Origin: Paenibacillus castaneae
GTDB lineage: Bacteria; Bacillota; Bacilli; Paenibacillales; Paenibacillaceae
DNA: 64,000 nt
Assembly (NCBI RefSeq): GCF_002884445.1
Contig: NZ_KZ614144.1
Coordinates: forward strand, 971,272-1,035,271
Reading direction: 5' to 3'
The translations under genes were made by a program, and so were the position numbers. Positions within the stretch are counted from its first letter, which is position 1. Each line of letters starts with the position of its first letter. Positions 40,777-58,888 of the stretch are shown here, piece after piece. The notes below the pieces were generated by a model. That model saw nothing but the letters and a program-made list of their open reading frames with translations. It did not search any database and had not been told where the DNA came from.

Positions 40777-40966
40777 TGTATATGAGCCTTATCACTTGGA
40801 AGTGTTTGGAGGACGTTTGCGCTGGAGGTTTCTAAATATAACTTACTTATTCTGTTGAAGGAGCAACTTTTTTGTCGAGACAACCGTTAGTAAATGTGTT
40901 TAAATGGAAGTTAGATGGAAACGAATACAAGCTATTCATAGCGGAAAAAGGCAGGGTTGCTTACTT

Positions 40967-42031: not shown

Positions 42032-42090
42032 ATATAGCTTATTGGTTACACTATCAATACGATAGTGAATGGGCTATGGCTTCAGAACAG

Positions 42091-42123
42091 CGCAATCCTA
42101 TGACAGGATTGCGTCTTTTTTTT
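42091..42123 (+). terminator. Terminator of the DUF3048 gene
   Basis: CGCAATCCT (42091-42099) pairs with AGGATTGCG (42105-42113), followed by T8. Confidence 0.9.
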
Positions 42124-42160
42124 CTTTTTTTATGAAAATAAAAAATTTTTTTATTAAACA

Positions 42161-42192
42161 TTTACATTCTCTTAACAATTAAGATGTATACT
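42161..42192 (+). promoter_or_regulatory. PhoP-box-like repeats and -10 of the phosphate uptake operon
   Basis: TTTACA (42161-42166) and TTAACA (42172-42177) are spaced 11 bases start to start, as in PhoP boxes (TTAACA-like direct repeats). TATACT at 42187-42192 is a likely -10 without a normal -35, as expected of an activator-dependent promoter. Confidence 0.45.
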
Positions 42193-42256
42193 ATGTTAAG
42201 ATATTGTGGGCTCATAGCAGTGCGCCTAAACATCCAGTCAGGTAAAGGGGATTACG

Positions 42257-42868: not shown

Positions 42869-42892
42869 TCTAAAGAGTGGGAGTCTTAAAAA

Positions 42893-43885: not shown

Positions 43886-44025
43886 GAGGCTGTGGCGGGA
43901 TTGTGGGGAAGGGCGACGTACCTTTGTAGGACGTAGACGTAGGTCCAAAGGTTGAACCTTCTAAGGACATGCCCGATGGAAGGATCCCCCAAAGGTCGAA
44001 ACCTTTGAGGTCGAACCTTCTGGAC

Positions 44026-44125
44026 GTACCTTCGTACCTCAGAGCGTAGCTTCGTACCTCAGAGCGTAGCTTCGTACCTCTGAACGTACCTTCTTACCTC
44101 TGAACGTACCTTCTTACCTCTGAAC
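44026..44125 (+). repeat. Five 20-bp tandem repeats
   Basis: Unit GTAGCTTCGTACCTCAGAGC, from 44026, repeats five times without spacers and drifts to GTACCTTCTTACCTCTGAAC. It is preceded by imperfect inverted scraps of CGTACCTTT/AAAGGT at 43915-44020. There is no coding frame. Confidence 0.9.
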
Positions 44126-44202
44126 GTACCTCCTATGAGGCAAACTCCGTTTTAGTGAGGATAAACTCACTAATTTGGCAGCTATACGAAGTTTTCAATG
44201 AG

Positions 44203-44271
44203 ATAGTGAGGAAAACCTCACTCGCCATGAACCTAGGTTCATGGGGAATGAGATTTACCTCACTATTTTTT
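44203..44271 (+). terminator. Nested palindrome, probable pit terminator
   Basis: ATAGTGAGG (44203-44211) pairs with CCTCACTAT (44258-44266), followed by a T run. Inside lies a perfect 20-bp palindrome CCATGAACCTAGGTTCATGG (44225-44244). GTGAGG/CCTCAC motifs recur from 44155 to 44320. Confidence 0.65.
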
Positions 44272-44377
44272 GTGTTCTCCATATGTAAGCCCCATAATAA
44301 GTGAGGCTGGCCTCACAGTTAGTGAGTTTCGTCGCGGATTTCGACTACACAGGGCGAGTCGGATGTGAGAGTGATGC

Positions 44378-44958
44378 GGATTGGTTACTCGGGAGCGCGA
44401 AACGAGCTGGATGTGCGCGTTGGAGTAACTGTTGAGTATGAAGTGACTTACGGATTGGTTACTTAGGAGCACGAAACGAGCTGGATGTGTGCATTGGAGT
44501 AACTGTTGAGTATGAGTGAATTGCGGATTGGTTACTTAGGAGCACGAAACGAGCTGGATGTGTGCATTGGAGTAACTGTTGAGTATGAGTGATTACGGAT
44601 TTGTTACTTAGGAGCGCGAAATGAGCTGGATGTGTGCGTTGGAGTAACTGTTGAGTATGAAGTGACTTACGGATTGGTTACTCGGGAGTGCGAAACGAGC
44701 TGGATGTGCGCGTTGGAGTAACTGTTGAGTATGAAGTGACTTACGGATTGGTTACTTAGGAGCGCGAAATGAGCTAGTTGTGCACATTGAAGTAACTGTT
44801 GAGTATGAGTGAATTGCGGATTGGTTACTTAGGAGCACGAAACGAGCTGGATGTGTGCGTTGGAGTAACCATTGTGTATGAGTGAATTACAGATTGTTGC
44901 TTAGGAGCGCGAAACGAGCTGGATATGCACAATGGATTAACAGTTGTGTATGAGTGGC
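44378..44958 (+). repeat. Eight ~73-bp tandem repeats
   Basis: Units begin at about 44378, 44452, 44525, 44597, 44671, 44745, 44818 and 44891. Consensus parts are GGATTGGTTACTTAGGAGC, then ACGAAACGAGCTGGATGTG and TTGGAGTAACTGTTGAGTAT. Copies abut with no unique spacers, so this is not CRISPR. Stops occur in all frames. Confidence 0.95.
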
Positions 44959-44993
44959 CTAAGGAGATTGCCGAACGGTGTCGAAGGTTGCAC

Positions 44994-45161
44994 TTGTGCA
45001 CAGGCTTAAATAATAAGGAATAGTGAAGAGATACAAAAACTGTGGATATATCAGTTTTTTGAGATATCCACAGGGGTATAAGTTGTTTCTATGTAGTGTG
45101 AAATGATGCATAAATAAGATACGACGAGTATTATGCACAATCAGACCACAGATGTGGATGA
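44994..45161. promoter_or_regulatory. Cluster of DnaA-box-like sites
   Basis: TTGTGCACA (44994), TGTGGATAT (45041), ATATCCACA (45064), TTATGCACA (45131, exact consensus) and TGTGGATGA (45153) fall within 168 bases. The second and third form a hairpin. Such clusters bind DnaA away from the origin in bacilli. No replication gene is near, so this is not called an origin. Confidence 0.4.
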
Positions 45162-45171
45162 ATGAGCAAGA

Positions 45172-45837
45172 TTAGGATTGGTTGTAGCTCGAGAGCAGGT
45201 AAGAAGTTGTTCTATGCTTGGATGCTTGGCCGCGCAATATGCCTTCCTGTTCAAATCGCTGAAGCCAGTCAATAGCTGTTCGGTTGCTAATTTGAAATTC
45301 ACGAGCGACTTCGCTAGGTTTAAGCTTTCCATCTCGGCGCATAGCCAATTGAATGAGAAGCTGCTTGCGAATTTCCCATAGCTTGGTGGGCTTTGTACTT
45401 TCACCGCTATAGGTTAATGCCCACCAATGCCCAATTGCTTGCTTTAATTGGAACATGCATTTTTGTGAATGGTTTTTCACCTGCCAAGCCGAGAAACGAA
45501 GTACAATCCAGCCTGACAAGACAAGATCATTCTGGCGAATGAGATGGTCATTGAATTCGGCAGGCGAAATATTGCGAGCGTGAGTTGTAAAGCCGTCAAT
45601 TTCGACTACCAATCGCATTCCGTTCTTAATATATACGAAATCAGCAAATCTTTGGCCTCCTTTATGGTCAACAAAAGGATGCTCGGCGCGAAGACCGTCA
45701 TAATTGTGGTCGAATGCCGGGCCCCACACTTGCTCAAGAAAAGAGATTGAGGATATATCCAGCTTGCTGCGATAGGAGCTGCTTAGAGCAGCTTCTCGTT
45801 CAAAGCGTTCAATAAATGATATCAGGTTAGGATGCAT
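45172..45837 (-). CDS. DUF559-type nuclease with C-terminal helix-turn-helix
   Basis: A ~221-residue protein; ATG 45837 with AGGAGG upstream is preferred over the frame start at 45915. Residues ~10-150 look like a PD-(D/E)xK very-short-patch-like nuclease: Glu in FLEQVWG, Asp in QRFADFVY, then LVVEIDGFTTH, and LSGWIVLRFSAWQV as the following beta strand. Residues ~165-221 form a winged-helix-like DNA-binding module (KPSEVAREFQISNRTAIDWL). The fusion of nuclease and HTH is less usual. Substrate and role are unknown. Confidence 0.75.
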   Translation of the reverse strand: MHPNLISFIERFEREAALSSSYRSKLDISSISFLEQVWGPAFDHNYDGLRAEHPFVDHKGGQRFADFVYIKNGMRLVVEIDGFTTHARNISPAEFNDHLIRQNDLVLSGWIVLRFSAWQVKNHSQKCMFQLKQAIGHWWALTYSGESTKPTKLWEIRKQLLIQLAMRRDGKLKPSEVAREFQISNRTAIDWLQRFEQEGILRGQASKHRTTSYLLSSYNQS

Positions 45838-45870
45838 TTCTATTCCTCCTTTTTGTGTAAGAAATGAAAA

Positions 45871-45908
45871 CACCCCGACTGCAGCGCTTAGCGCTGCAGT
45901 CGGGGTGT
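45871..45908 (-). terminator. Perfect GC-rich hairpin upstream of the nuclease gene
   Basis: CACCCCGACTGCAGCGCT and AGCGCTGCAGTCGGGGTG flank a 1-2-base loop. On the minus strand a GTTTTC run follows, so it can end the transcript of the upstream gene (46064-46603) or attenuate the nuclease gene. Confidence 0.7.
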
Positions 45909-46063
45909 GCTTCACTCCAATGCATATATAACTTCATATTAGCGAATAGAAGGCATTCATACAAGTGAGCTGGAGTAGTTCTGGCTAACTCTACCCTGAT
46001 ACGTATGGATGTACAAAGGTTAATTGGCTGATCGGAGGAGGTGGGCCAATTAATCTTTTCTTA

Positions 46064-46603
46064 TTACTTCTTGCGCTTTGTGGTGCGCCGGCGGACTTGG
46101 CTTTTGCCTGAGCCTGTTCCAGTACGAGGCTTGCGGCGCTTGCGGCGTTTTGGTTTCCATTCTCCGTCATCATCATCCGAATCGGAGGAGGACTTTTTGA
46201 AGGAGCCCATAAGCACTTTGACAAGCGGAGCCATCTGAGAAACGCTGCTCATGACCTTCTGAACCTTCGTAACGGTGCTCAGAATCCCGTCGATTCCACC
46301 AAGCCGATCCAAGTAGCCTTTAATTTCTCCTAAGCTGGCAAGAGAAAAGCCTGTTTTGGCAGGGGTGGTCGAATCCACTAAGTCTGCTGCTTTCTCAGGC
46401 AAGACAACGGGCAGTATATCCTGGCCTGGAGGGGGCGGTGTCATCGGCGGCATAGACGGCAGATTCGCACCAAAGTTAAAGCCGCCAGATTTGGCTCCCA
46501 TCGATTTATGAGGAGGTCCTTCACCTGCGCGGTAGCCACCGTGTCCATTATAGTGTTGGTTGCCGGTACCGGAGGAGTTGTTGCGATAATTCACACGGAT
46601 CAC
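46064..46603 (-). CDS. VrrA/YqfQ-like low-complexity protein
   Basis: A 179-residue protein starting at GTG 46603 (a second GTG lies 3 codons on). The N-terminal third is Gly/Asn/Pro rich. Residues ~85-145 form an amphipathic helical region (LASLGEIKGYLDRLGGIDGI, MSSVSQMAPLVKVLMGS). An acidic run SDSDDDDGE and a strongly basic tail (KRRKRRKPRTG, RRRTTKRKK) end it. The order recalls Bacillus YqfQ/VrrA, thought to be sporulation-linked. Upstream, TAGTCTATG (46619-46627) reads CATA-N3-TA on the minus strand, like a sigma-E/K -10. Role uncertain. Confidence 0.55.
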   Translation of the reverse strand: MIRVNYRNNSSGTGNQHYNGHGGYRAGEGPPHKSMGAKSGGFNFGANLPSMPPMTPPPPGQDILPVVLPEKAADLVDSTTPAKTGFSLASLGEIKGYLDRLGGIDGILSTVTKVQKVMSSVSQMAPLVKVLMGSFKKSSSDSDDDDGEWKPKRRKRRKPRTGTGSGKSQVRRRTTKRKK

Positions 46604-46923
46604 AACCCTTTTTTATAATAGTCTATGGAATAGGCAAACATACGGATTGGACTAATGTCCCGAGATCCTATATTTTTTATAGATTAATGCCCTGTGCCTG
46701 TATGATTTGCCGCTCTTCCAGAAAAGCTGATTAATCCTTCCATTCTGTAATGCGTGAATACGGTAATGTTTGAATAAATCTGTTAAAAAAGCTACAATGA
46801 AAGCATTGGTTTAAATATGAGAACGTCATGATTTTATCTAATATGATGCTTATATTTTTACGCGAAACGTGTAGAGCGCCGTCATCGACGGGCGTTTGCC
46901 GTTTACGCATGTAATAGGGGTGG
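46604..46923. other. Divergent intergenic control region
   Basis: This 320-base gap separates two divergent genes. It has no supported frame. Visible items are the CATA-N3-TA motif for the minus-strand gene at 46619-46627 and AT-rich stretches with GCCGTCATCGACGGGCG (about 46880), a short hairpin before the YerC-like gene. Confidence 0.4.
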
Positions 46924-47220
46924 ATGCACATGCAGCTGAAAAAGCTGAACGATAAAGCAATAGATCAATTATTTGAAGCGGTACTAACCTTGAAATCGGT
47001 TGAGGAATGTTATGTGTTTTTTGACGACTTGTGTACGGTTAATGAAATTCAGTCGTTATCTCAGCGGTTAGAGGTTGCTCGTATGCTCGGCAAGGGCAGC
47101 ACGTACAATGCAATTGAAGCGGAAACAGGAGCGAGCACGGCGACAATCTCACGGGTGAAGCGCTGTTTGAATTACGGCAATGACGGCTACAAAATGGCTT
47201 TAGAGCGTCTCGGAAGGTAG
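46924..47220 (+). CDS. YerC/TrpR-superfamily DNA-binding protein
   Basis: A 98-residue all-helical regulator. FEAVLTLKSVEECYVFFDDL and LCTVNEIQSLSQRLEVARML, then STYNAIEAETGASTATISRV, are the YerC/YecD pattern with a TrpR-like helix-turn-helix. In Bacillus the relative YerC is linked to cell growth and essential-like functions; the ligand and targets are not known. An ATG two codons further on (46930) is also possible. Confidence 0.88.
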   Translation: MHMQLKKLNDKAIDQLFEAVLTLKSVEECYVFFDDLCTVNEIQSLSQRLEVARMLGKGSTYNAIEAETGASTATISRVKRCLNYGNDGYKMALERLGR

Positions 47221-47229
47221 GTCCTTTCC

Positions 47230-48006
47230 ATGAAGCCGGGCGTTCTAGTCATTAGTCATGGCTCCAGAGAGGCTGAATGGGTTCAGCTAGTGGATGAAGC
47301 TGTAGCTGCTGCTGCGGCTTCTCTTCCGTTGGCAGGTATTCCAGTATATTCCTCCTTTCTTGAAATTGTCGAGGGACGGCTCATTCAGGATGGAATTGAT
47401 GAGTTGGAACGGCAGGGCGTAACGGATATGCTGGTTATACCGTTATTCGTCTCCTCAGGAAGCACTCATGTTGACGAGATTGGACAGGCGTTTGGCCTTC
47501 CATGGGTATCGGATTTAGAAGGCGATCTTGGCACTTTCCGTGTTGAAGCGAAGGTGCATTATGGCCTGCCGATTAACGATGATCCAGAAATTGCTGAGCT
47601 TCTAGCAACTCATGCTGAGGATTTGTCTACAGAGCCTGCGAAGGAAGCGTTATTGCTGATCGGTCACGGGAGCAAGGAAGACGTATTCCACCAAAGGTGG
47701 GAGCTGGGTCTGAAGCAGCTGAGTGAACAGCTTCGAAAGCTCGGCGGCTATGCACGTGCAGATTATGCCATGCTGCTGCCCGATCAAGCGGCAATGAAGC
47801 TTGCCGGCATGCAGGCGGAGCATCCAGAGGAAGCGGTCATTGTAGTTCCGCTGTTTCTGAGCCAGGGTTATTTTACAAATCATGTAATTCCGACTCGGCT
47901 TGCAGGGCTTGATTATCGGTACAATGGACGGGCTATGCTTCCTCATCCGGCAATTGAACGTTGGCTGGAGCGGCAGATGACTGACTGGTTGAAAGCCGGA
48001 AGTTAA
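47230..48006 (+). CDS. CbiX/SirB-type sirohydrochlorin chelatase
   Basis: A 258-residue protein with two similar halves, as in the long CbiX/SirB chelatases. The first begins VLVISHGSREAEW with metal-site His10, then VIPLFVSSGSTHVDEI. The second begins LLLIGHGSKEDVFHQRW and ends VVPLFLSQGYFTNHVIP. It inserts Fe2+ (siroheme) or Co2+ (cobalamin) into sirohydrochlorin. No siroheme or cobalamin genes are adjacent, so the metal is open. Confidence 0.85.
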   Translation: MKPGVLVISHGSREAEWVQLVDEAVAAAAASLPLAGIPVYSSFLEIVEGRLIQDGIDELERQGVTDMLVIPLFVSSGSTHVDEIGQAFGLPWVSDLEGDLGTFRVEAKVHYGLPINDDPEIAELLATHAEDLSTEPAKEALLLIGHGSKEDVFHQRWELGLKQLSEQLRKLGGYARADYAMLLPDQAAMKLAGMQAEHPEEAVIVVPLFLSQGYFTNHVIPTRLAGLDYRYNGRAMLPHPAIERWLERQMTDWLKAGS

Positions 48007-48072
48007 TCAAGATTTATTAGCTAATCGCATATTATGATGTAGGTTGAGTGATTGTTAGGGGTGAACCGATAG

Positions 48073-48987
48073 ATGGCAATCAAACGGGCAAGACTGATAT
48101 ATAACCCGAGTTCAGGAAGAGAAGAAATGAAAAAGCGTCTGCCGGATATTTTGCAGCGATTAGAACAGGGCGGTATTGAAACAAGCTGTCATGCGACCAT
48201 TGGTGAAGGTGATGCTACGATTGCTGCTTCTGAAGCGGCGGATCGCGATTATGATATGATTATTGCAGCTGGCGGCGACGGCACGCTGTATGAAGTCATT
48301 AATGGATTAACGAACAAGTCGAACTGTCCTCCTCTTGGTATTTTGCCGCTGGGAACGACGAATGATTTCGCGAGAGCGATGGGTATTCCGAGAGCCTGGG
48401 AGTATGCGGTCGACTTGATCATTCAACAATATACGCGGCCGATTGACGTCGGGAAGGCGAATGATCGTTATTTTATTAATATTGCTGGCGGCGGCTCATT
48501 GACAGAACTGACCTATGATGTGCCGAGCAAGCTCAAGACGATGATTGGGCAGCTCGCTTATTATATGAAGGGTTTGGAGAAAATGACCCGCCTGCGCCCG
48601 ACCGAATTAACATTCCAAGCGGCTGGCGTCGGTCAGTTCCACGATGAGTTCATGATGTTCCTCATTTGCAACAGCAATTCGGTTGGCGGATTTGAACGCC
48701 TTGCGCCGGATTCCAAGCTGGATGATGGTTTGCTTGATGTGCTGTTGATCCGCAAGTGCAACTTGCCTGAGTTTATTAAGCTCGTGTCACTTGCGCTTCG
48801 CGGCGAGCATCTCAATGATCCGCATGTGATCCACTTCCGGACCAACGAGCTGAAGGTAACGACACCGGATTACGTACAGATTAACCTCGATGGTGAATAT
48901 GGCGGCGTGCTGCCATGCACATTCTCGGTGCTGCCGCTGCACTTGAATATTTTTGCGGATAAAACGGGCGTGTCTACTTATAGATAA
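48073..48987 (+). CDS. dgkB: Diacylglycerol kinase, DgkB type
   Basis: A 304-residue soluble lipid kinase that phosphorylates diacylglycerol back to phosphatidic acid, recycling lipid from teichoic acid synthesis. ARLIYNPSSGREEMKKRLPD, IIAAGGDGTLYEVINGL and LGILPLGTTNDFARAMG are the ATP and catalytic motifs, and GGGSLTELTYDVP follows. In Bacillus dgkB is likewise next to the RlmCD-type methyltransferase gene, as here (53 bases downstream). Confidence 0.93.
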   Translation: MAIKRARLIYNPSSGREEMKKRLPDILQRLEQGGIETSCHATIGEGDATIAASEAADRDYDMIIAAGGDGTLYEVINGLTNKSNCPPLGILPLGTTNDFARAMGIPRAWEYAVDLIIQQYTRPIDVGKANDRYFINIAGGGSLTELTYDVPSKLKTMIGQLAYYMKGLEKMTRLRPTELTFQAAGVGQFHDEFMMFLICNSNSVGGFERLAPDSKLDDGLLDVLLIRKCNLPEFIKLVSLALRGEHLNDPHVIHFRTNELKVTTPDYVQINLDGEYGGVLPCTFSVLPLHLNIFADKTGVSTYR

Positions 48988-49040
48988 GAGCGGATTAAAG
49001 CTTGCAAGAAACAGCAATGAAGAAAGAGCGGAGAGAATTT

Positions 49041-50546
49041 ATGAACAAAGGCAGAAGCAGAGGCGGCAGCAGGGGGAAATCGCGAAGCACAGGAAATGCT
49101 AGTGCAGCGGCAGCTCCAATAGATGCGCCTTTTCAAAAAAATGAAGAAGTCACTGTCGATATCATCGGCCTGACTCATGATGGAGAAGGGGTAGGCCGCG
49201 CTGACGGCTATACCCTTTTTATACAAGGGGCGCTTCCTGGTGAACGCGTGCGCGCCAAGGTTATGAAAGTAAAGAAGCAGTATGGTTATGCACGGCTGGA
49301 GGAGATTGTTCTTAAGAGCCCCTCACGTGTGGAGCCGCCTTGTGATATATATAAGGAGTGCGGCGGCTGCCAGCTGCAGCACTTCGATTATCCTGCACAG
49401 CTGGAGTGGAAGAGACAGCATGTGGTGGACAATTTAATGCGGATCGGGAAGCTTAAAGTAATTGGCGAAGCTAATCGTGAAGGTGCGATTATTTCGGAGG
49501 GAATCATCGTTCATGAAACGGTTGGAATGGACGAGCCTTGGCGTTACCGGAATAAGGCTGCGGTACCTGTTGGCATAAGCTCGAAGGATGGCGAGCTGCT
49601 CGCTGGTTTCTATGCACGGAGCAGCCATCGCATTATCGATATGGACGATTGTCTCATTCAGCATAATGACAATGACGAAGTCATTCGTATGGTGAAGAGA
49701 ATCGGCAGGGAGCTGGGAGCCTCGCCCTATGATGAGGAAACAGGCGGCGGCATGCTTCGTCATGTGATGGCGCGGACGGGAGTAGTCACTGGTGAAATCA
49801 TGGTCGTGCTCGTAACGAATGGCAAAAAGCTGCCGTCGGCAGAGCTTTGGGTTCAACGAATTCGTGAAGAGCTGCCAGCTGTGAAGAGCATCGTGCAGAA
49901 CGTCAATGAGCGGAACACGAATGTCATATTCGGTGATGAAACGAAAGTGCTATGGGGCAGTGAAGTGATATATGATGAGCTCGACGGTATTCGCTTCGCG
50001 ATTTCCGCTAGATCGTTCTATCAGGTGAACCCGGTACAGACGGTTGAGCTTTACCGTAAAGCGGTTGAGTATGCAGGCTTGACGGGATCGGAGACGGTAA
50101 TCGATGCTTATTGCGGTATTGGTACCATCTCGTTATTCCTTGCTCGGCAAGCGGGCCGCGTGTATGGAGTGGAAATCGTTCCAGAAGCGATTGAGGATGC
50201 AGCAAGGAATGCTGCGCTGAATGGTATCGAGAACGCGTCATTTGAAGCGGGACCTGCGGAGGTCGTTATTCCTCGCTGGCGCGAGGAAGGCATAACGGCA
50301 GATGTAATCGTCGTTGATCCACCAAGAAAAGGCTGCGATCCTGCACTGCTTGAAACGATTCTCGCAATGAAGCCGGAAAGAGTTGTTTATGTGAGCTGTA
50401 ATCCGTCTACGCTTGCTCGGGATTTGAGAGTGCTGGAGGATGGCGGATACCGCACGGCTGAGGTTGTGCCGGTGGATATGTTTCCTTGGACGGTGCATGT
50501 GGAGAGCTGTGTGTTGCTAGTGAGAGATGTTGTAACCACCCAATAA
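49041..50546 (+). CDS. rlmCD: 23S rRNA (uracil-C5) methyltransferase, RlmCD type
   Basis: A 501-residue SAM enzyme. A basic Gly/Ser/Arg tail precedes a TRAM domain (~25-90; LTHDGEGVGRADGYTLFIQG). A partial iron-sulfur cysteine set is in PPCDIYKECGGCQLQHF. The methyltransferase core has DAYCGIGTISLFLA, VVDPPRKGCDP with the first Cys region and VYVSCNPSTLARDL with the nucleophile Cys. ATG 49041 with GGAGAG upstream is chosen over 49002 and 49017. Which uridines it modifies cannot be read from sequence. Confidence 0.93.
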   Translation: MNKGRSRGGSRGKSRSTGNASAAAAPIDAPFQKNEEVTVDIIGLTHDGEGVGRADGYTLFIQGALPGERVRAKVMKVKKQYGYARLEEIVLKSPSRVEPPCDIYKECGGCQLQHFDYPAQLEWKRQHVVDNLMRIGKLKVIGEANREGAIISEGIIVHETVGMDEPWRYRNKAAVPVGISSKDGELLAGFYARSSHRIIDMDDCLIQHNDNDEVIRMVKRIGRELGASPYDEETGGGMLRHVMARTGVVTGEIMVVLVTNGKKLPSAELWVQRIREELPAVKSIVQNVNERNTNVIFGDETKVLWGSEVIYDELDGIRFAISARSFYQVNPVQTVELYRKAVEYAGLTGSETVIDAYCGIGTISLFLARQAGRVYGVEIVPEAIEDAARNAALNGIENASFEAGPAEVVIPRWREEGITADVIVVDPPRKGCDPALLETILAMKPERVVYVSCNPSTLARDLRVLEDGGYRTAEVVPVDMFPWTVHVESCVLLVRDVVTTQ

Positions 50547-50677
50547 ACTCTTGCTATAACAAATAAAGTTCTGCTAAAAACGTAATAAACCCGTGCTAAA
50601 TAGGGTGAGTGAATGAGAATAGGAAGCAGATATTGCTTACCTACAGCCCCCTCAAAGCACGCTAGAGAATACAAAAT

Positions 50678-50724
50678 AACCGAGCGAGATTCAGGTAATA
50701 TCACTGAGTTCGCTCGGTTTTTCA
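50678..50724 (+). terminator. Terminator of the methyltransferase gene
   Basis: AACCGAGCGA (50678-50687) pairs perfectly with TCGCTCGGTT (50710-50719), followed by T5. Confidence 0.85.
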
Positions 50725-50812
50725 TTTGACCGAATGATGATTAATATATTTTTATTGTAAACATTTTGCTTTCGCCTGTTGTGCGAGAGCGTGCTGTAAT
50801 AGCGAGATAATA

Positions 50813-50866: not shown

Positions 50867-52039
50867 TTACTCGTATACAGGAGTCTCTACTGCGGGAACC
50901 TTTTCATATTTAGGAATAATTGTGGATGCTACGAATGCTACGGCCGGTATGAGGAGTACGATTCCTATACACCCGCTCATTCCCAGGATGACTTCAATAG
51001 CTATAAAATTCATATTCAGCAATTGAGCAACGGAAACTCGCATCGCGTAGATGATAATTAGTGAACTGAGAGCACTGCCTGTGAAAGCAAGAATAAGGGT
51101 GGTAGCCATCGTACCCATCATATCACGCCCCACATTAAGTCCCGACATATACAATTCTTTCTTACCAATGTTTGGATTGGCTAGAAAAACCTCATGAACG
51201 GCTGCTGCAATAGAGATGCTTACGTCCATCATAGCTCCTAACGAAGCGAGTAAAATTCCTGCAAATAACAAATCGCTAAGCTGTAAACCGGTGTTATGGG
51301 AAATGGTAACTAACGACTCTCCACTTTCTATGTTATACCCCGAAATATGCGTCAAATTTCCGGCTATATAGGCGATAAGACCGGCAACAGTCACCCCAAT
51401 GATCGTACCGATTATAGCGGACCAGGATTTTGAGCTCCACCCATTTAATAAAACCAGCGTGACAAAAGTTGATAAAACGACGATCAAAACAGATGCCCAA
51501 ATTGGGGAGTAACCTCTGTACAGCATAGGAATATATAAATAAATAATACAAGCAAAAGTGAAAATAATGCCGAATACAGACATTAGCCCTTTTCTGCCTC
51601 CGATCAGCCATAAAGCTGCAAAGAATAGCAAAATTAAACCCAGGATTACGGGAGCTTTGTGGTTACTGTATACATAAACTTCATAATCTTTAGTGGAAGC
51701 AGTATCAACATTTACAACAACCGTTGAGCCTTTTTTGAAAATATTGTGATTGTACAGGCTAACATAATTCATGACTTTGTGAACTTCGCCTTTATGCTCG
51801 CCAGAAAGAAGTTTTACCTCCATCTGTTGGGTTCCTGTTCTAAGATTGAGTTGATCAGGACTCTTTTCTAAATCTTCACTAATGATCGTCAAAACTTGTG
51901 CCGTTACATATTTAGAATAAGTGAGTCCCGATTGGAGGTATTTCACCTCAGGAGCCTTGCTGAACAAATAAATTGAAGCACAGATGATCAGCAGTGCCAC
52001 GAGAGAGAGCACCGTTCTTGTCTTCTTAGATATTTTCAT
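50867..52039 (-). CDS. YibE/F-family membrane protein
   Basis: A 390-residue protein. An N-terminal helix (~9-28) is followed by a ~110-residue extracellular domain (LKSGEHKGE-like segment VKLLSGEHKGEVHKVMNY). Eight or so helices fill ~130-375; LLFAGILLASLGAMMDVSIS and SGLNVGRDMMGTMATTLILA are the YibE/F signatures. The function of the family is unknown; transport is suspected. CGGAGG precedes the ATG. It is divergent from the HupE-like gene and shares a 159-base promoter region with it, so may be co-regulated with the surface locus. Confidence 0.88.
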   Translation of the reverse strand: MKISKKTRTVLSLVALLIICASIYLFSKAPEVKYLQSGLTYSKYVTAQVLTIISEDLEKSPDQLNLRTGTQQMEVKLLSGEHKGEVHKVMNYVSLYNHNIFKKGSTVVVNVDTASTKDYEVYVYSNHKAPVILGLILLFFAALWLIGGRKGLMSVFGIIFTFACIIYLYIPMLYRGYSPIWASVLIVVLSTFVTLVLLNGWSSKSWSAIIGTIIGVTVAGLIAYIAGNLTHISGYNIESGESLVTISHNTGLQLSDLLFAGILLASLGAMMDVSISIAAAVHEVFLANPNIGKKELYMSGLNVGRDMMGTMATTLILAFTGSALSSLIIIYAMRVSVAQLLNMNFIAIEVILGMSGCIGIVLLIPAVAFVASTIIPKYEKVPAVETPVYE

Positions 52040-52150
52040 ATACTACCTCCGAATAAGTTGTATGAAAAACGGCTTAAATACATTAATTAATCTATCTTAT
52101 TGGTTGAAAATGTACAAGAATATTTATGTATTATTTTTGTAATTAAATAA

Positions 52151-52159
52151 TGGTATTAT
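52151..52159 (+). promoter_or_regulatory. Extended -10 promoter of the surface locus
   Basis: TGGTATTAT (TG-N-TATTAT) lies about 40 bases before the HupE-like start, in an AT-rich divergent region. No strong -35 is seen. Confidence 0.4.
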
Positions 52160-52198
52160 GAGACCTGAATAATATTCAAGTTAATTTAGGAGGCAGAA

Positions 52199-53290
52199 AT
52201 GGTGAAGAGAATGGGCAGGCTTTTTATATTTTCGACAATTATGTTTGTGTTTTTATTGGGGTTATTTCCATCCGTTACATCCGCTCATGATAATGACAGC
52301 ATAGCTTTTACAGATATTTCGATCAAAGGCAATGTAATTAAATTTGTAATACAAATTGATATGTATGATATAAGGGTAGAGGCAACACCGGAGAATCCAG
52401 ATGTAGGGGATAAAACTTCTGAAGCGTACGATCGGTTTGTTAAAGAGTCGCATGATCCTGTAGAGAAGTACTTGTTATCTAATATAGAATTATATGCTGA
52501 TGATTTACCGCTTAAAGGAAAACTAACGCAGCTGAGTCAAGTTGACAAAGAGGATCAGAACCAACCATTTGCAGAAGCGGTGCTTGAGTATCCAGTTGAA
52601 AATAGTCCCCAAAAATTTGAACTAGATTATAATTTGGTTTTTGAACGTGATTCATATCATGTCAATTATGTTAATGTAGCGCTCGGAGATTTAAAAGCAA
52701 ATGCTGTGTTCGTCTCTGAGCTTCATGAGCTTCGAATTGGACAAATGAGTTTACCCTATACGTTGGAGCATTTTTTTCTGCTTGGTCTTAAGCATGTATT
52801 GACACTGTTTGAATCTATTATTTTAATCGCTCTATTAATTATAGGTCGTAAATCCGTCAAGCAGCTTGCAGCAGCTTTGTTCGTTTTTTTGGGAATTTAT
52901 TCATTGACTTTAATTTTGGCAGGTTTACAGCTATTAAACTTGCCTGATCATTTTATTCATTCAATTATTGCACTAAGTATTTTCATAGTCTCGTTATATA
53001 CCTTACTAAGCAAGAAAAAAAATCTCTATCTATGGCTAGCAGGGGGTTTCGGTTTCTTCTACGGATTCGGATATGCCGAAGGTTTGGCCGGGTTGAAATC
53101 GGATGGAGGGCATAAAATATACTCTGTTCTGGCTTATACTGTCGGAATCGGTGCCGCTGTATCTATAATTGCATTAATCTTGTACCTCGTTCTTCATTTC
53201 GTATTAAAGGTTAAGAACTTATTTTCTTGGATCTTAAAAACGCTTTTGTTGTTTGGCATAGTATGGTTCATTGTAAGAGCATTTTTCTAA
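52199..53290 (+). CDS. Divergent HupE/UreJ-like membrane protein
   Basis: A 363-residue protein. A signal peptide (1-~28, ending VTSAHD) precedes a ~160-residue extracellular domain and ~6 helices. The membrane half parallels the HupE/UreJ_2 family: LEHFFLLGLKHVLTLFESII sits where canonical members have the GxxHxLxGxDHLLFL metal motif, and LPDHFIHSIIALSIFIVS where they have PxWxVEpaIALSI. One His remains, but the DH pair is lost, so metal binding is doubtful. AGGAGG precedes the start. It opens the cluster with the cohesin/dockerin proteins. Confidence 0.6.
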   Translation: MVKRMGRLFIFSTIMFVFLLGLFPSVTSAHDNDSIAFTDISIKGNVIKFVIQIDMYDIRVEATPENPDVGDKTSEAYDRFVKESHDPVEKYLLSNIELYADDLPLKGKLTQLSQVDKEDQNQPFAEAVLEYPVENSPQKFELDYNLVFERDSYHVNYVNVALGDLKANAVFVSELHELRIGQMSLPYTLEHFFLLGLKHVLTLFESIILIALLIIGRKSVKQLAAALFVFLGIYSLTLILAGLQLLNLPDHFIHSIIALSIFIVSLYTLLSKKKNLYLWLAGGFGFFYGFGYAEGLAGLKSDGGHKIYSVLAYTVGIGAAVSIIALILYLVLHFVLKVKNLFSWILKTLLLFGIVWFIVRAFF

Positions 53291-53428
53291 TGCAAAGTTA
53301 AATGTGTAAATGTTTACAAATAAATCACGTAATTCCCAATTGGATTTAACAAATTAACCCTATAATTTGACGGGTCGGGCTTGATAAGAGCTCGCAACAT
53401 TTTATTCAAAAGGGGTGTTGATTTCGCA

Positions 53429-55771
53429 ATGTTTATCAAATTTAAGAAAAGGCAATTCACTAAGATTGGCACGTTGGTCCTAACTTCGATGTTGGCAGTA
53501 TCTTTACTGCCAGGTAACGTTCTTAGTGTTGCAGGATCAAATTCAGTAGAAGCTGCAGCTGATGTACAAGCCGTTTACAGTGCAAAGGACATTTCACTTA
53601 CTCCAGGTGCAGATGAATCCAAATTGAATTTCGCTTGGTACTCTTCTGTTAATCCGGTAGGCGCTGTTGTTCAAATGGCCAAAGTAACTGATGTGGTTGA
53701 TGGTATTTTTCCAACTGATAAAGCTTTGTCATTCGATGGCACTTCTTCTCCAGCAGTTACTGGGTTTAATTCCAATAAAGTAACGGCAACAAATCTTGAG
53801 CCAGATACGCAATACGTTTACCGTTTTGGAGACGGTACAGACGAAAACTGGAGCGAAGCTTACGATTACAAAACTCCAAATCCGGATAGCTACACTTTTA
53901 TGTACGTAGGTGACCCGCAAATTGGTGCAAGCGGTAACGCAGACACGGATACTATTGGCTGGAAAAGAACAATGAAACTAGCTAAAGATAACTTCCCGAA
54001 CATCGACTTCGTTATGTCTGCCGGTGACCAGGTTGATACAGCAACATCTGAGGCCCAATATGATCTTTATACAAGTCCTGATCAACTCAAAAATCTGCCA
54101 GTAGCAACAACAGTTGGTAATCATGATACGAGTATTAACTATGAGTACCACTTTAATGTTCCTAATTTGACAACTTTCGGCGGTCAAACCGTTTCTGGTA
54201 AAATTGTCAACGGTGATTATTCGTATACTTATGGCGATGCTCTGTACATGGTTATTAATTCAAATAGTTCTAGTACTGCAGACCATGCAGTGTTTATGAG
54301 ACAAACTGTCGCTGCTAATCCAGATGCCAAATGGAGATTCGTTACTCTGCATCATGACATTTATGGTGCTGGTTCGGCCCACTCTACATCAGATTCGGTA
54401 GCTAGAAGGATATATCTTCAGCCTGTAATCGATGAGCTTGACATTGATTTGGTTTTCACAGGTCATGACCACTCTTATGCTAGATCGTACCCTTTGTATA
54501 ACAACGATGTTCAAACTCAATTTAAAGATGGCCAAGGAAATGATATCAACCCTTCTGGTACATCCTACTTTACAGCGAACTCTGCGACCGGAAGTAAATA
54601 TTATGCTCTAGCACCAATTGCTGAATATTATTCTGAATCAAGAATCCAGCACAACAAACTGTCTTTCTCTACTGTTACCGTAACACCAACAACGTTTACT
54701 TATGATACGTATGAAATCGAATCCGACGACAGCTTAACTCTTATTGATTCATACAAAGTTGTGAAAAAACCAGAAGACGCTAAGGTTTACGCAAAAGCGG
54801 ATGATAAAGCTAGCGTTTACTACGCAATCAAGAATGCTAATGCTGTGAAAAACCTGGATACTACATTTACTTTCGACAGCACAAAAATGAAATTGAAAGA
54901 TGCTGCATTGGTAACTCCAGACACTGGAAGCTTTGTAGTTGACAGCAGTAAAGCGGGAGAAGTAAACATCAAGGCTACTCTTGCAACTCCAATCCGCTCT
55001 CAGGATTATGCTGATGTTATTAAGCTTACTTTTGAAGGAGTAGGTGTCCAAAAATCGGAAGTAGTAAGTGTAGAACTTGCAAAATCTGATCTTACTACTT
55101 TAAACAAACATAGAGTTAATGTTTCCAATGTAGAAGAGAGGAATGCTCCAGTAACGATTATTAATCAACCAAATGTTAAAGTTTATGTTAAAAAAAGTAC
55201 GGTAATTGCGGAACTGTCTAAAAAAGCAGAATTCTATATTGCACTGAGCAACGCTGATGATGTAAACGCACTGGACACTACTTTCCATTATGACCACACA
55301 AAATTCAAATTAGCGGCTTTTGAGCTGATCAACCAAGACGATGACATCCAATCATTCGATGATAACAATGGTTCTGTACGTTTCATCGCTGGCTTTACAA
55401 AACCAATTTCAACAGTTGGCTACACGGATGTAGTGAAGCTGACTTTGGAACCAATCAGTGTGTTTAATAAATTCCTGCAAGCTGACATCAAGCTTGACAA
55501 AGTAACAACTGCTTCCAAAGGAATCAATACAGTAGTTCTAAACAACACGGAGGAAAAAGCGGCATCGATCATGCTTCGTACGTATAAAAACCTCGTTGAT
55601 GTTAACGAAGACGGCAAAGTAGACGTCGGCGACCTTTCATTTGCTATTGATTGCTACAGAACTACTTCTGCTGATCCAAATTGGAATAAAGCAAAACGAT
55701 CTGACGTTGTCGAAGACGGCGTTATTGATACCGCTGACTTAACATTAATCATGTACCACATCATGCACTAA
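53429..55771 (+). CDS. Secreted metallophosphatase with two cohesin-like modules and a dockerin
   Basis: A ~780-residue exported protein; ATG 53429 follows GGGGTG. After a signal peptide (1-~42) comes a purple-acid-phosphatase-type N-terminal Fn3-like domain (~45-150; ATNLEPDTQYVYRFGDG). The calcineurin-like domain (~155-430) has all metal motifs: YVGDPQIG, SAGDQVDT, VGNHDT, TLHHDIYG and FTGHDHSYAR. Two similar ~125-residue modules follow (~447-715). VYYAIKNANAVKNLDTTF and FYIALSNADDVNALDTTF are their matching cores, a cohesin-like pattern. The last ~60 residues form a type I dockerin with two calcium loops (VDVNEDGKVDVGDLSFAI and VVEDGVIDTADLTLIM). It should be a calcium-dependent surface phosphatase; cohesin calls are by pattern. 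Confidence 0.82.
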   Translation: MFIKFKKRQFTKIGTLVLTSMLAVSLLPGNVLSVAGSNSVEAAADVQAVYSAKDISLTPGADESKLNFAWYSSVNPVGAVVQMAKVTDVVDGIFPTDKALSFDGTSSPAVTGFNSNKVTATNLEPDTQYVYRFGDGTDENWSEAYDYKTPNPDSYTFMYVGDPQIGASGNADTDTIGWKRTMKLAKDNFPNIDFVMSAGDQVDTATSEAQYDLYTSPDQLKNLPVATTVGNHDTSINYEYHFNVPNLTTFGGQTVSGKIVNGDYSYTYGDALYMVINSNSSSTADHAVFMRQTVAANPDAKWRFVTLHHDIYGAGSAHSTSDSVARRIYLQPVIDELDIDLVFTGHDHSYARSYPLYNNDVQTQFKDGQGNDINPSGTSYFTANSATGSKYYALAPIAEYYSESRIQHNKLSFSTVTVTPTTFTYDTYEIESDDSLTLIDSYKVVKKPEDAKVYAKADDKASVYYAIKNANAVKNLDTTFTFDSTKMKLKDAALVTPDTGSFVVDSSKAGEVNIKATLATPIRSQDYADVIKLTFEGVGVQKSEVVSVELAKSDLTTLNKHRVNVSNVEERNAPVTIINQPNVKVYVKKSTVIAELSKKAEFYIALSNADDVNALDTTFHYDHTKFKLAAFELINQDDDIQSFDDNNGSVRFIAGFTKPISTVGYTDVVKLTLEPISVFNKFLQADIKLDKVTTASKGINTVVLNNTEEKAASIMLRTYKNLVDVNEDGKVDVGDLSFAIDCYRTTSADPNWNKAKRSDVVEDGVIDTADLTLIMYHIMH

Positions 55772-55780
55772 TAAAAAGTA

Positions 55781-55825
55781 AGTAAAGGAGCAGGAGAAGG
55801 CCTTGCGCCTTTTCCTGCTCCTTAC
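55781..55825 (+). other. Hairpin between phosphatase and SLH genes
   Basis: AGTAA-GGAGCAGGA-AAGGC-type arms at 55781-55801 and 55806-55825 form a ~18-bp stem. It has only a weak T tract, so it may end part of the transcripts or stabilise the upstream mRNA, giving different amounts of enzyme and anchor protein. Confidence 0.6.
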
Positions 55826-55845
55826 TAATAAGGGAGTTTAATCTA

Positions 55846-57525
55846 ATGAAAATTAAATGGTTAACCGCACTCTTAATAATCTGTTGCTTTAGCTTCCAGG
55901 TGCCTGTTTATGCGTCAGCCGATCAACATATTCAATCTGTGGACTTCTCCAAATCGAGCATTACGGTTGGCAGCAATGCCAAGGAATTTTCCGTTGATAT
56001 TATTTTAAACAATAACGCATCTTTTAGCAGCGCAGAATTCGGTCTTCTTTTGGAAGGCGTAACCATTCAAAAAGATAAAATACAATATAGCAATGCCATT
56101 TCTAGTTCTCATATAGGCCCATTAGAAAGCCATGGCGTAAATTATTTTGGTTTTTATGATAAAGCAAATAAATACAATGGAAAAATAAATGTTTGTACAA
56201 TAACTTTCACATATACGGGCGATTCCCCGGCTAAAGTAACTCTAGTTGAAACGAATGTTACAACAATTACAGCGGATGGCTTTGTAAGCACAGAATCTGC
56301 GAAACCCAATAAAGTTTTGCAAGTAACTCGCACTGCAGGTGGTAACCCAGACCCAGGTCCAGGCGGTGGTTCTGATACCAAACCTCCTGCGGATAAAAAC
56401 AGCGGTTCTTATGTTGTTGACAGCCAAGATGCCTTAAGTGCACTAGAGAAAGCCAAAACAGATAAGAACAATGTCAAAGTTATTACAATTGATGCAACTA
56501 AGGTACTGGCAGACGACAATGATGAAATTGCTATTCAATTGCCTTACTTCCTTCTCAATACGCCAGAGCAGCGTATTGTTAATATCATTACGCCATTCGG
56601 AACATTCAACCTTCCGTCAAATGTATTGACAAAGGAACAAGCAGCTAATGCTAGTACGCTTACTTTAATTGTGAAAAAGCAGAATTTGTCCCTCTTATCG
56701 AAGGATGTTCAGTCACAGGTTGGCAGCCATCCCGTTTTTGATATTCATTTCTTAGTTGATGGAAAATCTATTGCTTGGAATAATGATGATGTAGCGGTAA
56801 CTGTATCTATTCCTTACACTCCAACAGCGGATGAAGCAAAGAACACTAATAAATTGACTGTTCATTATATTGACGATAACGGTAAGCTTTATGCTGTAGC
56901 AAACAGTATTTATAACGCTCAAAGCCATAGCATTAATTTCGCAACGAACCATTTTAGCAACTATGGTATAGTTTTTGCTCAGAAAAGCTTTGCTGACATT
57001 CAAACTTCATGGGCGAAGAACGAGATTGAAGCGCTTGCCATTCGCGACATCATTAATGGTACGACTGCAACGACTTTCTCTCCTGCGGCGAACATTACAA
57101 GAGCTGATTTCACAAAACTGCTTGTTGGTGTTCTTGGACTTAAAGCACAGAAACAAGGAAATGATTTCAGCGACATTCCATCCACGGCTTATTACTATGA
57201 ATCAGTAATGACAGCCAAAGCAGTTGGCCTCGTTAACGGATCTGGCGACAACAAGTTTAACCCTAAATCGCAGATCACAAGACAGGAAATGATTACACTC
57301 ATTGATCGCGCACTTACAATTGCAGGCAAACCGCTTTCGGAGAAAGCATCTCTATCTGCATTCAACGATGCGAAGCAGGTTGCTTCTTATGCAACTGATA
57401 GCACAGCAAAGCTCGTAGCGGCTGGTATTATCAATGGCAGCAACGGCAAGCTCAGACCGCTGGATAACTTAAAACGTGATGAAGCGGCTAAAGTTCTGTA
57501 TGCAATCTTTACTCGCTTGTACTAG
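55846..57525 (+). CDS. SLH-anchored protein with an N-terminal cohesin-like module
   Basis: A 559-residue surface protein. A signal peptide (1-~25) is followed by a cohesin-like domain (~28-165; SVDFSKSSITVGSNAKEFSV, HGVNYFGFYDKANKYNG, CTITFTYTGDS). A Pro/Gly linker (GGNPDPGPGGGSDTKPP) leads to a ~190-residue beta domain. Three SLH repeats end it (~385-559: FADIQTSWAKNEIEALAIRD, FSDIPSTAYYYESVMTAKAV, FNDAKQVASYATDSTAKLVA), which bind pyruvylated wall polymer. A GGGAG site precedes the ATG, 75 bases after the phosphatase. It could present a cohesin to the phosphatase dockerin. Fit of the pair is inferred. Confidence 0.82.
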   Translation: MKIKWLTALLIICCFSFQVPVYASADQHIQSVDFSKSSITVGSNAKEFSVDIILNNNASFSSAEFGLLLEGVTIQKDKIQYSNAISSSHIGPLESHGVNYFGFYDKANKYNGKINVCTITFTYTGDSPAKVTLVETNVTTITADGFVSTESAKPNKVLQVTRTAGGNPDPGPGGGSDTKPPADKNSGSYVVDSQDALSALEKAKTDKNNVKVITIDATKVLADDNDEIAIQLPYFLLNTPEQRIVNIITPFGTFNLPSNVLTKEQAANASTLTLIVKKQNLSLLSKDVQSQVGSHPVFDIHFLVDGKSIAWNNDDVAVTVSIPYTPTADEAKNTNKLTVHYIDDNGKLYAVANSIYNAQSHSINFATNHFSNYGIVFAQKSFADIQTSWAKNEIEALAIRDIINGTTATTFSPAANITRADFTKLLVGVLGLKAQKQGNDFSDIPSTAYYYESVMTAKAVGLVNGSGDNKFNPKSQITRQEMITLIDRALTIAGKPLSEKASLSAFNDAKQVASYATDSTAKLVAAGIINGSNGKLRPLDNLKRDEAAKVLYAIFTRLY

Positions 57526-57567
57526 GTGTAGGAATATAACGAAGAGTTTCAATACACTAAGGCATTC

Positions 57568-57603
57568 CAAACTAACTTGACCATACTGCTAAGCTAGTTT
57601 GGG
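57568..57603 (+). terminator. Hairpin after the SLH gene
   Basis: CCAAACTAACTTG pairs with CTAAGCTAGTTTGG with small bulges; a weak T-rich tract (CTCTTTAATTT) follows. Confidence 0.6.
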
Positions 57604-57697
57604 ATAGCCTCTTTAATTTAGGTTGCACAATAAAAATATTTGAATTACAGGATGGTACTTTATATTGCATCCTCTTTCAATAATAAGGAGAGAAATC

Positions 57698-58888
57698 ATG
57701 GTTCGTGTTAAAGCTACAATTCGAGCTTCCATCCTATTGTCTATTCTAGCGCTTCTTCTTATCCCTATTGGAAAAGTAGATGCACATGCTTACAGCGCCA
57801 GCTATACAACGTTAACTCTAACGAAAGCCAACATTGGAATGACATATACACTTGATGAGCTCTCTGTCATAGAACTGACGGATGGCGATGTGAATAAGAA
57901 TAGTATGCTGGAACCGGAAGAGTTCGATGCGGTGAAGGACCGGATTTTGGAATTGTTAAAGAAAGATATTCAATTAGAAATTGATAACGTGCCTCAGGAA
58001 TGGTCCCAAATTGAAAGCTTTACATTGAAACGTGAAGGAGACGCCACGAAGGTGATCCTAAATATCACCTTTCCTCCTGTACTGGCTTCTCAGTCAATTT
58101 CATTAACAGACAATCTCTACTTAATTGATAAAAATACTGCAAATTATGTTGATTTAGTTAAAATCAATTACGGTACACAAAACAGTACATCTGCCCTGTC
58201 GGGGAAGTACCGCGTATGGTCGATGCAACTAACAGAAAGTGATTATGCTGCTCTCCGTCAGGATCTGCAATCGCAGCCGAATAGTAATAGTACTGAATCT
58301 GGCGGTACGGAAAGTTCAGATGGTTTAGGGCATATTTCAGGTTGGTTTTCTTTCTTTACGTTAGGCATGGGTCACATTTTGGGTGGTTATGACCATCTGT
58401 TATTTTTGTTCTCGCTGCTTATTGCAAGACAAACGTTTAAGCAGTATGCAAAAATGATAACTGCGTTTACGATCGCTCACAGTATAACTTTGACATTAAC
58501 AGTGCTCGGTATTATTAATATACCTGCGTGGTTTGTAGAACCAGCAATTGCGCTTAGTATTTGCTATGTAGCCGTTGAAAATATAGTGCGTAAAGATGTT
58601 AGCTATCGGTGGGTATTAACCTTTTTGTTCGGATTAATTCATGGTATGGGCTTTGCTGACATTTTGAAAGAAATGGATATTCCAAGAAGTGAACTGGCAA
58701 CAGACTTAATTAGTTTTAATCTTGGTATTGAAACGATTCAAGTAGCGTTGGTTGCACTGTTGCTGCTTCCGCTGATCATGCTGCATCGTTGGAAATTTTT
58801 AAGACGCGCAGTTATTGTTGGATCAGCAATCGCCTTGATACTAGGGGCATATTGGTTGATAGATCGTATCATTATTATGTCGGCATAA
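57698..58888 (+). CDS. HupE/UreJ-family membrane protein
   Basis: A ~396-residue protein; ATG 57698 has AAGGAGAG upstream. A signal segment (~8-32) precedes an extracellular domain (~35-200) that includes an EF-hand-like loop DVNKNSMLEPEEF. The membrane domain has the full family motif LGMGHILGGYDHLLFLFSLL, then FTIAHSITLTLTVLG, PAWFVEPAIALSI and FGLIHGMGFADIL. These histidines and aspartate are thought to bind nickel, cobalt or a similar metal. It closes the cluster and contrasts with the motif-poor relative at 52199. Transport of a metal for the phosphatase is a guess. Confidence 0.85.
   Translation: MVRVKATIRASILLSILALLLIPIGKVDAHAYSASYTTLTLTKANIGMTYTLDELSVIELTDGDVNKNSMLEPEEFDAVKDRILELLKKDIQLEIDNVPQEWSQIESFTLKREGDATKVILNITFPPVLASQSISLTDNLYLIDKNTANYVDLVKINYGTQNSTSALSGKYRVWSMQLTESDYAALRQDLQSQPNSNSTESGGTESSDGLGHISGWFSFFTLGMGHILGGYDHLLFLFSLLIARQTFKQYAKMITAFTIAHSITLTLTVLGIINIPAWFVEPAIALSICYVAVENIVRKDVSYRWVLTFLFGLIHGMGFADILKEMDIPRSELATDLISFNLGIETIQVALVALLLLPLIMLHRWKFLRRAVIVGSAIALILGAYWLIDRIIIMSA

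Follow-up and report, generated by a model that had tools for sequence, protein, structure and literature searches.

A candidate surface-phosphatase cassette in Paenibacillus castaneae linking dockerin–cohesin wall anchoring to HupE- and YibE/F-type membrane proteins

Five neighbouring genes at positions 50867–58888 of a 64,000-nucleotide stretch of Paenibacillus castaneae DNA (hereafter the window: contig NZ_KZ614144.1, positions 971,272 to 1,035,271) probably form a cassette that anchors a phosphatase at the cell surface and tends its metal. The gene yibE/F lies on the minus strand and is followed on the plus strand by hupE1, a phosphatase gene, a gene for a protein with surface-layer homology (SLH) repeats, and hupE2. 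We infer that the C-terminal dockerin of the secreted binuclear-metal phosphatase plugs into a cohesin on the SLH protein encoded next to it, and that this docking takes the role of the covalent SLH anchor seen on the same phosphatase in related species. HupE1, HupE2 and YibE/F would be membrane partners looking after the metal of the phosphatase: the exodomains, which start with a histidine, most likely bind metal close to the site of secretion, HupE2 most likely moves metal across the membrane, HupE1 would be a binding-only subunit and YibE/F a further transporter. The host genome measures 6.3 Mb, and P. glycinis and P. artemisiicola are among the close relatives of the organism.

RESULTS

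Docked and covalently anchored forms of the phosphatase

The phosphatase gene (53429..55771, plus strand) encodes a secreted metallophosphoesterase with the domain plan of purple acid phosphatases, i.e. an N-terminal Pur_ac_phosph_N domain (53588..53875; PF16656, E 5.7e-13) followed by a calcineurin-like catalytic domain (53897..54478; PF00149, E 8e-13). It ends in a two-loop dockerin (55598..55759; PF00404, E 5.3e-5, 23.8 bits for a cut-off of 22.9, and 28.3 bits in the genome search). Directly downstream, the wall-anchor gene (55846..57525, plus strand) encodes a signal peptide, a cohesin-like module, a middle region and three SLH repeats (PF00395, E 2.2e-30). An earlier reading of the window made without database searches (the sequence-only reading) had described a secreted metallophosphatase ending in a two-loop dockerin and, downstream of it, an SLH-anchored protein with a cohesin-like module, and both descriptions hold.

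We then looked at 394 Paenibacillaceae genomes, 19 of which have a match to PF07907 (YibE/F) and 83 to PF13795 (HupE_UreJ_2). All 19 intact yibE/F genes, two of them in the same genome (G649), adjoin this phosphatase gene, and the phosphatase comes in two forms. Twelve of the 19 loci encode a single polypeptide that combines the phosphatase with three SLH repeats and lacks a dockerin (Pfam at E up to 0.1); in 8 of these 12 fused loci, a stretch similar to module 2 of the window phosphatase (see below) lies between the phosphatase and the SLH repeats. In the seven split loci (the window, G008, G027, G739, G743, G746 from P. artemisiicola and G748 from P. glycinis), the phosphatase has no SLH repeats and carries a C-terminal dockerin; a separate cohesin–SLH gene comes next. 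Judging from these sequences, dockerin and SLH repeats in cis are mutually exclusive: the dockerin and the separate anchor gene co-occur in 7/7 split loci versus 0/12 fused ones. The naive probability of this co-occurrence is 2e-5, a figure to be read with the relatedness of the loci in mind: honestly counted, there are two or three events.

The dockerin form falls at two distinct positions, requiring two changes on the phosphatase tree and two on the YibE/F tree. A single origin was rejected: on the phosphatase tree, forcing the dockerin forms into one clade costs 85.9 log units (approximately unbiased test, p-AU 1.3e-56; the dockerin group was defined ahead of the tree, and L181 and L185 have long branches according to a warning of the tool). 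Because the dockerin form holds two positions on both gene trees, the dockerin–cohesin pair most likely replaces the covalent wall anchor. Anchoring of the phosphatase to the wall is well supported by these sequence comparisons, and the sequence-only proposal that the enzyme is held at the surface is supported by the 12 relatives whose phosphatase itself includes an SLH anchor.

In all seven split loci the gap between the phosphatase and anchor genes can be folded into a hairpin (z -2.9 to -5.6). In the window it lies at 55781..55826 (plus strand; -34.3 kcal/mol, z -5.6) and has no T run behind it; perhaps it sets the ratio of enzyme to anchor.

Cohesin-like modules and dockerin

The profile search proposed along with the sequence-only reading gave a mixed answer: PF00404 and the SLH family were found, whereas PF00963 (cohesin) matched none of the three modules, and a Pfam scan gave no cohesin in either the phosphatase or the anchor protein of the window. 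We therefore list the more sensitive comparisons module by module, using for hhalign a reference profile built from ten cohesins of the same genome. Module 2 of the phosphatase (55163..55579, plus strand) aligned with this profile at 94.6% (E 6.5e-8). Module 1 (54773..55162, plus strand) aligned weakly with the cohesins (50.7%) and at 98.6% with module 2. Module 3, the putative dockerin socket of the anchor protein (55918..56331, plus strand), was unsupported (2.7%). PDB sequence searches with the module profiles returned nothing for module 2 and only weak non-cohesin matches for module 3.

Structure prediction gave a more uniform picture. The alignments behind the AlphaFold2 models were shallow (five and three rows), module 3 was modelled on the P. 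glycinis sequence, and model confidence is modest: the mean predicted local distance difference test score (pLDDT) was 56.8 (module 3, about 58–85 per ten-residue block) and 50.2. The top match of the module 3 model was the cohesin-like module 2vo8 (Foldseek E 4.7e-7; VIA-align Z 13.4, root-mean-square deviation 2.6 over 125 residues), and solved cohesins were also the top VIA-align matches of module 1 (6kgc, Z 10.8) and module 2 (7uvg, Z 9.1). Module 3 also resembles the copper protein YcnI (Z 11.5), and integrin domains occur in its Foldseek list; a beta-sandwich alone is therefore no proof of a cohesin. At the place of module 2, between phosphatase and SLH repeats, the fused relative L178 has a Pfam cohesin match (28.8 bits, cut-off 24.1). 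The predicted folds support the view that the three modules, two in the phosphatase and one in the anchor as first proposed, are cohesins; solved cohesins, and not another beta fold, gave the best matches.

Pfam detected the dockerin in 7/7 split loci at E <=0.027, in four loci above the cut-off and in three below it. In the window, the second calcium loop has a V at position 3, as judged by eye. Module 1 is not conserved: in G027, G008 and G739 a Big_3 domain precedes module 2, and polymerisation through module 1 is therefore no general feature.

The window is not the only place in this genome where such modules occur. Outside it, the genome search gave 15 matches to PF00963 (14 above the cut-off) and ten to PF00404 (seven above). 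In each of four clusters (L137–L140), a cohesin–SLH gene is accompanied by one, two or three genes for large secreted cohesin–dockerin proteins, mostly with a glycosidase domain (GH3, GH2, GH127, GH16), and three more glycosidases of this kind (L141–L143) have no anchor gene nearby. The clusters have their weak points: one anchor has only a sub-threshold cohesin match, the dockerin of one enzyme looks degenerate by eye, and in L139 hmmscan, run on two of the three proteins, found no cohesin or dockerin, although the genome search gives the proteins of this cluster 40–42 bits (cohesin) and 19.2 bits (dockerin). PF00963 matches no reading frame of this genome more than once, i.e. there is no multi-cohesin scaffoldin by this profile; the phosphatase carries two cohesins by fold only. 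The anchor protein combines SLH repeats (Pfam) with a cohesin (predicted fold), as SLH-anchoring scaffoldins do.

Linkage of the genes and active site of the phosphatase

Conserved linkage of these genes, on which the sequence-only reading depended, is supported by the survey: yibE/F and the phosphatase gene are neighbours in 18 loci besides the window. The whole five-gene set recurs, in a different gene order, in two of these 18 (P. glycinis and P. artemisiicola); four others have the window set minus hupE2. In the remaining 12, yibE/F stands beside a phosphatase that is fused to its anchor, together with both hupE genes in nine loci and without hupE in three. Counted over all 19 loci, HupE is thus encoded in 16, with both copies in 12 and HupE1 alone in four (G008, G027, G739, G743). 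The linkage is kept down to 43–50% identity despite shuffled gene order. A remnant was seen in G009 (L106 9640–10270), where a truncated yibE/F has neighbours like those of G027 and the hupE1, phosphatase and anchor genes are gone.

The metal-ligand motifs GDPQ, GDQ, GNHD and GHDH are present in 19/19 phosphatases. In 19/19, D, E or N stands at the position of the GDxxY tyrosine, which gives purple acid phosphatases their colour and defines that family, and 'purple' is therefore the wrong name for the window phosphatase.

The membrane proteins and the neighbours of HupE

HupE/UreJ-type genes on either side and a divergent yibE/F gene were part of the sequence-only description, and the family matches confirm all three. 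The yibE/F gene (50867..52039, minus strand; PF07907, E 5.5e-78) encodes a membrane protein predicted, from hydropathy and from invariant residues in the 19 rows, to consist of one helix, a non-membrane stretch and about seven more membrane helices. HupE1 (52199..53290, plus strand; PF13795, 53.5 bits for a cut-off of 24.5) comprises an exodomain and a permease that the motif alignment marks as degenerate, and HupE2 (57698..58888, plus strand) matches PF13795 with 154 bits for the same cut-off.

The predicted mature protein starts with a histidine in 16/16 HupE1 and 12/12 HupE2 sequences of the cassettes (cleavage sites placed by eye). We also compared, from the alignment, the motif H-x5-DH and two further histidines, which we take to be the permease ligands of HupE/UreJ-2 proteins. 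In the 12 loci with both proteins, HupE2 retains all of these ligands (12/12), whereas HupE1 has lost the DH pair in 12/12, the second histidine in 11/12 and the third in 6/12. Where HupE1 is encoded alone (four loci), all ligands are retained. The DH pair is hence missing from 12 of 16 HupE1 rows, that of the window included. This loss tracks the tree closely and may represent one or two events.

The neighbourhood of HupE_UreJ_2 genes was then examined more widely. The genus sample comprised all 55 PF13795 matches (22 of 51 genomes), forming 49 loci; the sample from other genera comprised 20 loci from 61 further genomes with HupE, one locus from each of the 20 best-ranked genomes, after exclusion of 13 with yibE/F and two apparent near copies. 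Neighbours within 1500 bases were detected with profiles built from the same loci, part of the assignments being confirmed by Pfam or NCBIfam. In the genus, we found 31 metallophosphoesterases, 12 CehA/McbA proteins, one GH125 enzyme (metal-independent), one DUF3500 protein and four loci that could not be judged. The 20 loci of other genera gave 15 CehA/McbA proteins (three in broken frames), one metallophosphoesterase, one M23 peptidase, one metallo-beta-lactamase fold, one SLH protein that lacks any known enzyme domain and one locus that could not be judged (in all five such loci, the neighbour or the next gene was unreadable). A metallohydrolase thus stands beside HupE_UreJ_2 in 61/69 loci, or 61/64 judgeable ones; two CehA neighbours are separated from HupE by one gene, and some CehA cases (the 490–525-residue type; L201) fall under or outside the NCBIfam cut-off. 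With 428 PF00149 and 93 NF038032 matches in the 22 genomes (about 150 Mb), hit density predicts such a neighbour within 7 kb on either side for about 5% of loci by chance; many of the loci counted here are orthologues rather than independent cases. HupE_UreJ_2 is uncommon across Bacillota as a whole (3 of 398 genomes).

Because 61/69 loci adjoin metallohydrolases of several folds, this sequence survey suggests a metal-handling role for HupE_UreJ_2. The sequence-only reading had HupE and YibE/F supply or move metal or phosphate; for HupE, the first half is plausible in view of the N-terminal histidine and the metallohydrolase neighbours. A phosphate role, which we first thought likely, is disfavoured by the M23 peptidase, metallo-beta-lactamase-fold and CehA/McbA neighbours.

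Several observations on HupE loci may be recorded here. In L111 and, judging by similarity, in L120, HupE also stands beside a dockerin protein; in L112, whose anchor has a Pfam cohesin, and in L192, with SLH repeats found by Pfam, it stands beside an SLH anchor. These loci are a second link between HupE and cohesin–dockerin modules. In four of the five loci that could not be judged, the gene directly next to HupE likewise encodes a dockerin protein or an SLH anchor. Another HupE locus (L097 787–12872, L060 2796–5915, L061 4031–7266) contains genes for a giant SLH protein with a CehA/McbA domain (L097), HupE, an ArsP_1-type permease, a DUF1980 protein and a cupredoxin-like protein, as assigned by Pfam on L060 and by similarity on the others. 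P. glycinis and P. artemisiicola have it next to the cassette, whereas in the window's genome the two are about 0.6 Mb apart. The close relative G029 (L108 2344–11602) shares the left flank of the window, with genes similar to sirB, a kinase gene and trmA (78–93% identical), and behind it carries a different HupE–metallophosphoesterase pair, as if HupE–phosphatase pairs had been exchanged at this site.

Gene starts, promoters and base composition

The start of the phosphatase gene was moved from TTG 53381, chosen by the open reading frame finder, to ATG 53429, because a ribosome-binding site precedes the latter and the P. glycinis gene starts there; that of hupE2 was moved to ATG 57698. A promoter scan showed no excess (22 found, 28.8 expected), and a guessed Pho box was dropped on inspection by eye. 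G+C content is lower at 1–10000 (0.374) and 50867–58888 (0.389) than at 40000–50800 (0.468); both stretches are perhaps acquired DNA.

DISCUSSION

Alternative explanations

Besides the covariation of dockerin and anchor gene, we count in favour of the cassette the decayed yibE/F of G009, whose partner genes are gone, and the four other clusters of the same genome that pair cohesin–SLH genes with enzymes. A number of observations weigh against it. The dockerin loops deviate from the canon, and the scores of three dockerins lie below the cut-off of 22.9 bits (G743, 18.5; P. artemisiicola, 17.5; P. glycinis, 15.1). The anchor cohesin goes unrecognised by sequence, and when dockerin, linker and anchor cohesin were folded as one chain, the dockerin reached a pLDDT of only about 33–47 (predicted template modelling score 0.47), too low to bear on docking either way. 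HupE is dispensable in the three yibE/F–phosphatase loci that lack it. Finally, the dockerin sits C-terminal to a cohesin of its own protein, so that binding in cis or in a chain is possible. That the dockerin indeed binds the adjacent cohesin, or one on a second phosphatase, while the SLH neighbour has another partner, seems to us rather unlikely: the ten other PF00404 matches of the genome (three of them sub-cut-off) likewise follow a cohesin in frame, as this alternative would have it, but it leaves the covariation with a separate anchor gene (7/7 versus 0/12, at two tree positions) and the four further clusters pairing a cohesin–SLH gene with such enzymes unaccounted for. Still less credit goes to a linkage without function, in which a mobile island happens to carry surface genes. 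The patchy occurrence of yibE/F (19 of 394 genomes) and the G+C content of the cassette (0.389, versus 0.468 and 0.429 in the flanks) are of the kind expected from such an island, but the conservation to 43–50% identity through shuffled gene order is not, nor is the different HupE–phosphatase pair that G029 carries behind the same left flank.

What HupE and YibE/F do with metal is the more delicate question. Rhizobium HupE is reportedly a nickel transporter, and an alternative with the same anchoring would have HupE and YibE/F import metal or product released outside the cell while the phosphatase splits metal–phosphate or organophosphate complexes. A study of HupE/UreJ-2 exodomains from one species each of two other phyla (PMC12537917) found Cu bound at the N-terminal histidine (dissociation constants 62 and 74 nM), with metallophosphatases as frequent neighbours of the Ang-2 type, and proposes capture and uptake. 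The same study proposes Cu for HupE/UreJ-2, yet Mn, Fe or Zn for metallophosphatases, which also counts against our cassette. The uptake alternative nonetheless strikes us as somewhat doubtful, in that the HupE neighbours, which belong to several unrelated folds, act on different substrates and include the M23 peptidase and the metallo-beta-lactamase fold, share a need for metal and an export route, as do the TerC clients of Bacillus subtilis, and not a product. Conversely, HupE_UreJ_2 and YibE/F could together be a dedicated metal-loading machine for secreted metallohydrolases, in which the His exodomain would hand over metal at the translocon, the permease would supply it and the degenerate HupE would only bind it; this we put forward tentatively. 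Loading of the exoenzyme and uptake each fall well short of an even chance, and handling of metal on behalf of the exoenzyme, the role assigned to the three membrane proteins in the cassette, is favoured. Were the loading machine real, the phosphatase displayed on the wall would be the first of its clients to have a YibE/F of its own, and attachment to the wall, whether by docking or by fusion, would hold client and loader in one place.

Relation to known systems

The anchoring part has precedents. In P. guangzhouensis, 28 cohesin–dockerin adaptors and five SLH anchors have been described and an enzyme-rich surface proposed (PMC11557425). The resemblance lies in SLH anchors with a cohesin and enzymes with cohesin and dockerin, a pattern that the other clusters of the window's genome share as well. 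The cassette differs in that its enzyme is a phosphatase and not a glycosidase, in the divergence of its anchor cohesin, which Pfam misses, in the adjacent position of the anchor gene and in the linked membrane proteins. We found no phosphatase version of cohesin–dockerin/SLH anchoring in the one open-licence library searched; the single paper there that combines dockerin with purple acid phosphatase concerns docking poses, to judge from its title. The anchor module has some of its best fold matches in the Clostridium perfringens cohesin-like modules 2vo8, 2jh2 and 2w1n, and the cohesin–FIVAR–dockerin enzymes of the same genome recall the C. perfringens system, for which we know of no SLH anchor. 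OlpA of the C. thermocellum cellulosome is a wall-bound protein whose one cohesin catches a single dockerin enzyme; PDB 3ul4, from anchoring proteins of the OlpA type, is among the fold matches, and the window's genome has no multi-cohesin scaffoldin detectable with PF00963.

The HupE proteins resemble the anglerases Ang-1 and Ang-2, in which a PF13795 permease is joined to an exodomain starting with histidine and, for Ang-2, metallophosphatases are neighbours (PMC12537917). That study assigns Ang-1 chiefly to Pseudomonadota and Ang-2 to Actinomycetota, and its main text contains none of the words Paenibacillus, Bacillota, Firmicutes and YibE. What sets the cassette apart is its pair of HupE copies, one of them degenerate, together with YibE/F and a wall anchor. 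The association of HupE with CehA was not found in the one open-licence library searched. A membrane protein proposed to give metal to secreted enzymes also recalls the TerC proteins MeeF and MeeY of Bacillus subtilis, which serve the metalation of exoenzymes (PMC10550928). These belong to PF03741, whereas HupE belongs to PF13795, has an exodomain and owes its proposed role to sequence comparison; none of six window proteins matched the TerC family in the Pfam scan. YibE/F has been listed without an assigned function as TC 9.B.141 (PMC3924187), and two YibE/F-like genes are listed in connection with reduced fitness of Staphylococcus aureus in blood (PMC13227979); a joint treatment of YibE and YibF was not found in the one open-licence library searched.

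Surface cohesin–dockerin glycosidases of Paenibacillus and Cu-binding HupE domains of anglerases with metallophosphatase neighbours are thus already known. The link to yibE/F, the switch between covalent and docked anchoring and the degenerate HupE partner are apparently new. Both membrane protein families are poorly understood: the role of YibE/F becomes testable through its strict linkage to a single secreted phosphatase, and the metallohydrolase neighbourhood of HupE_UreJ_2 raises the question of where exported metalloenzymes obtain their metal. The covalent/docked swap offers a clean case of a cohesin–dockerin pair outside cellulose degradation: some soil Paenibacillus probably clip a phosphatase to their surface by a plug-and-socket pair, with linked membrane proteins handling its metal.

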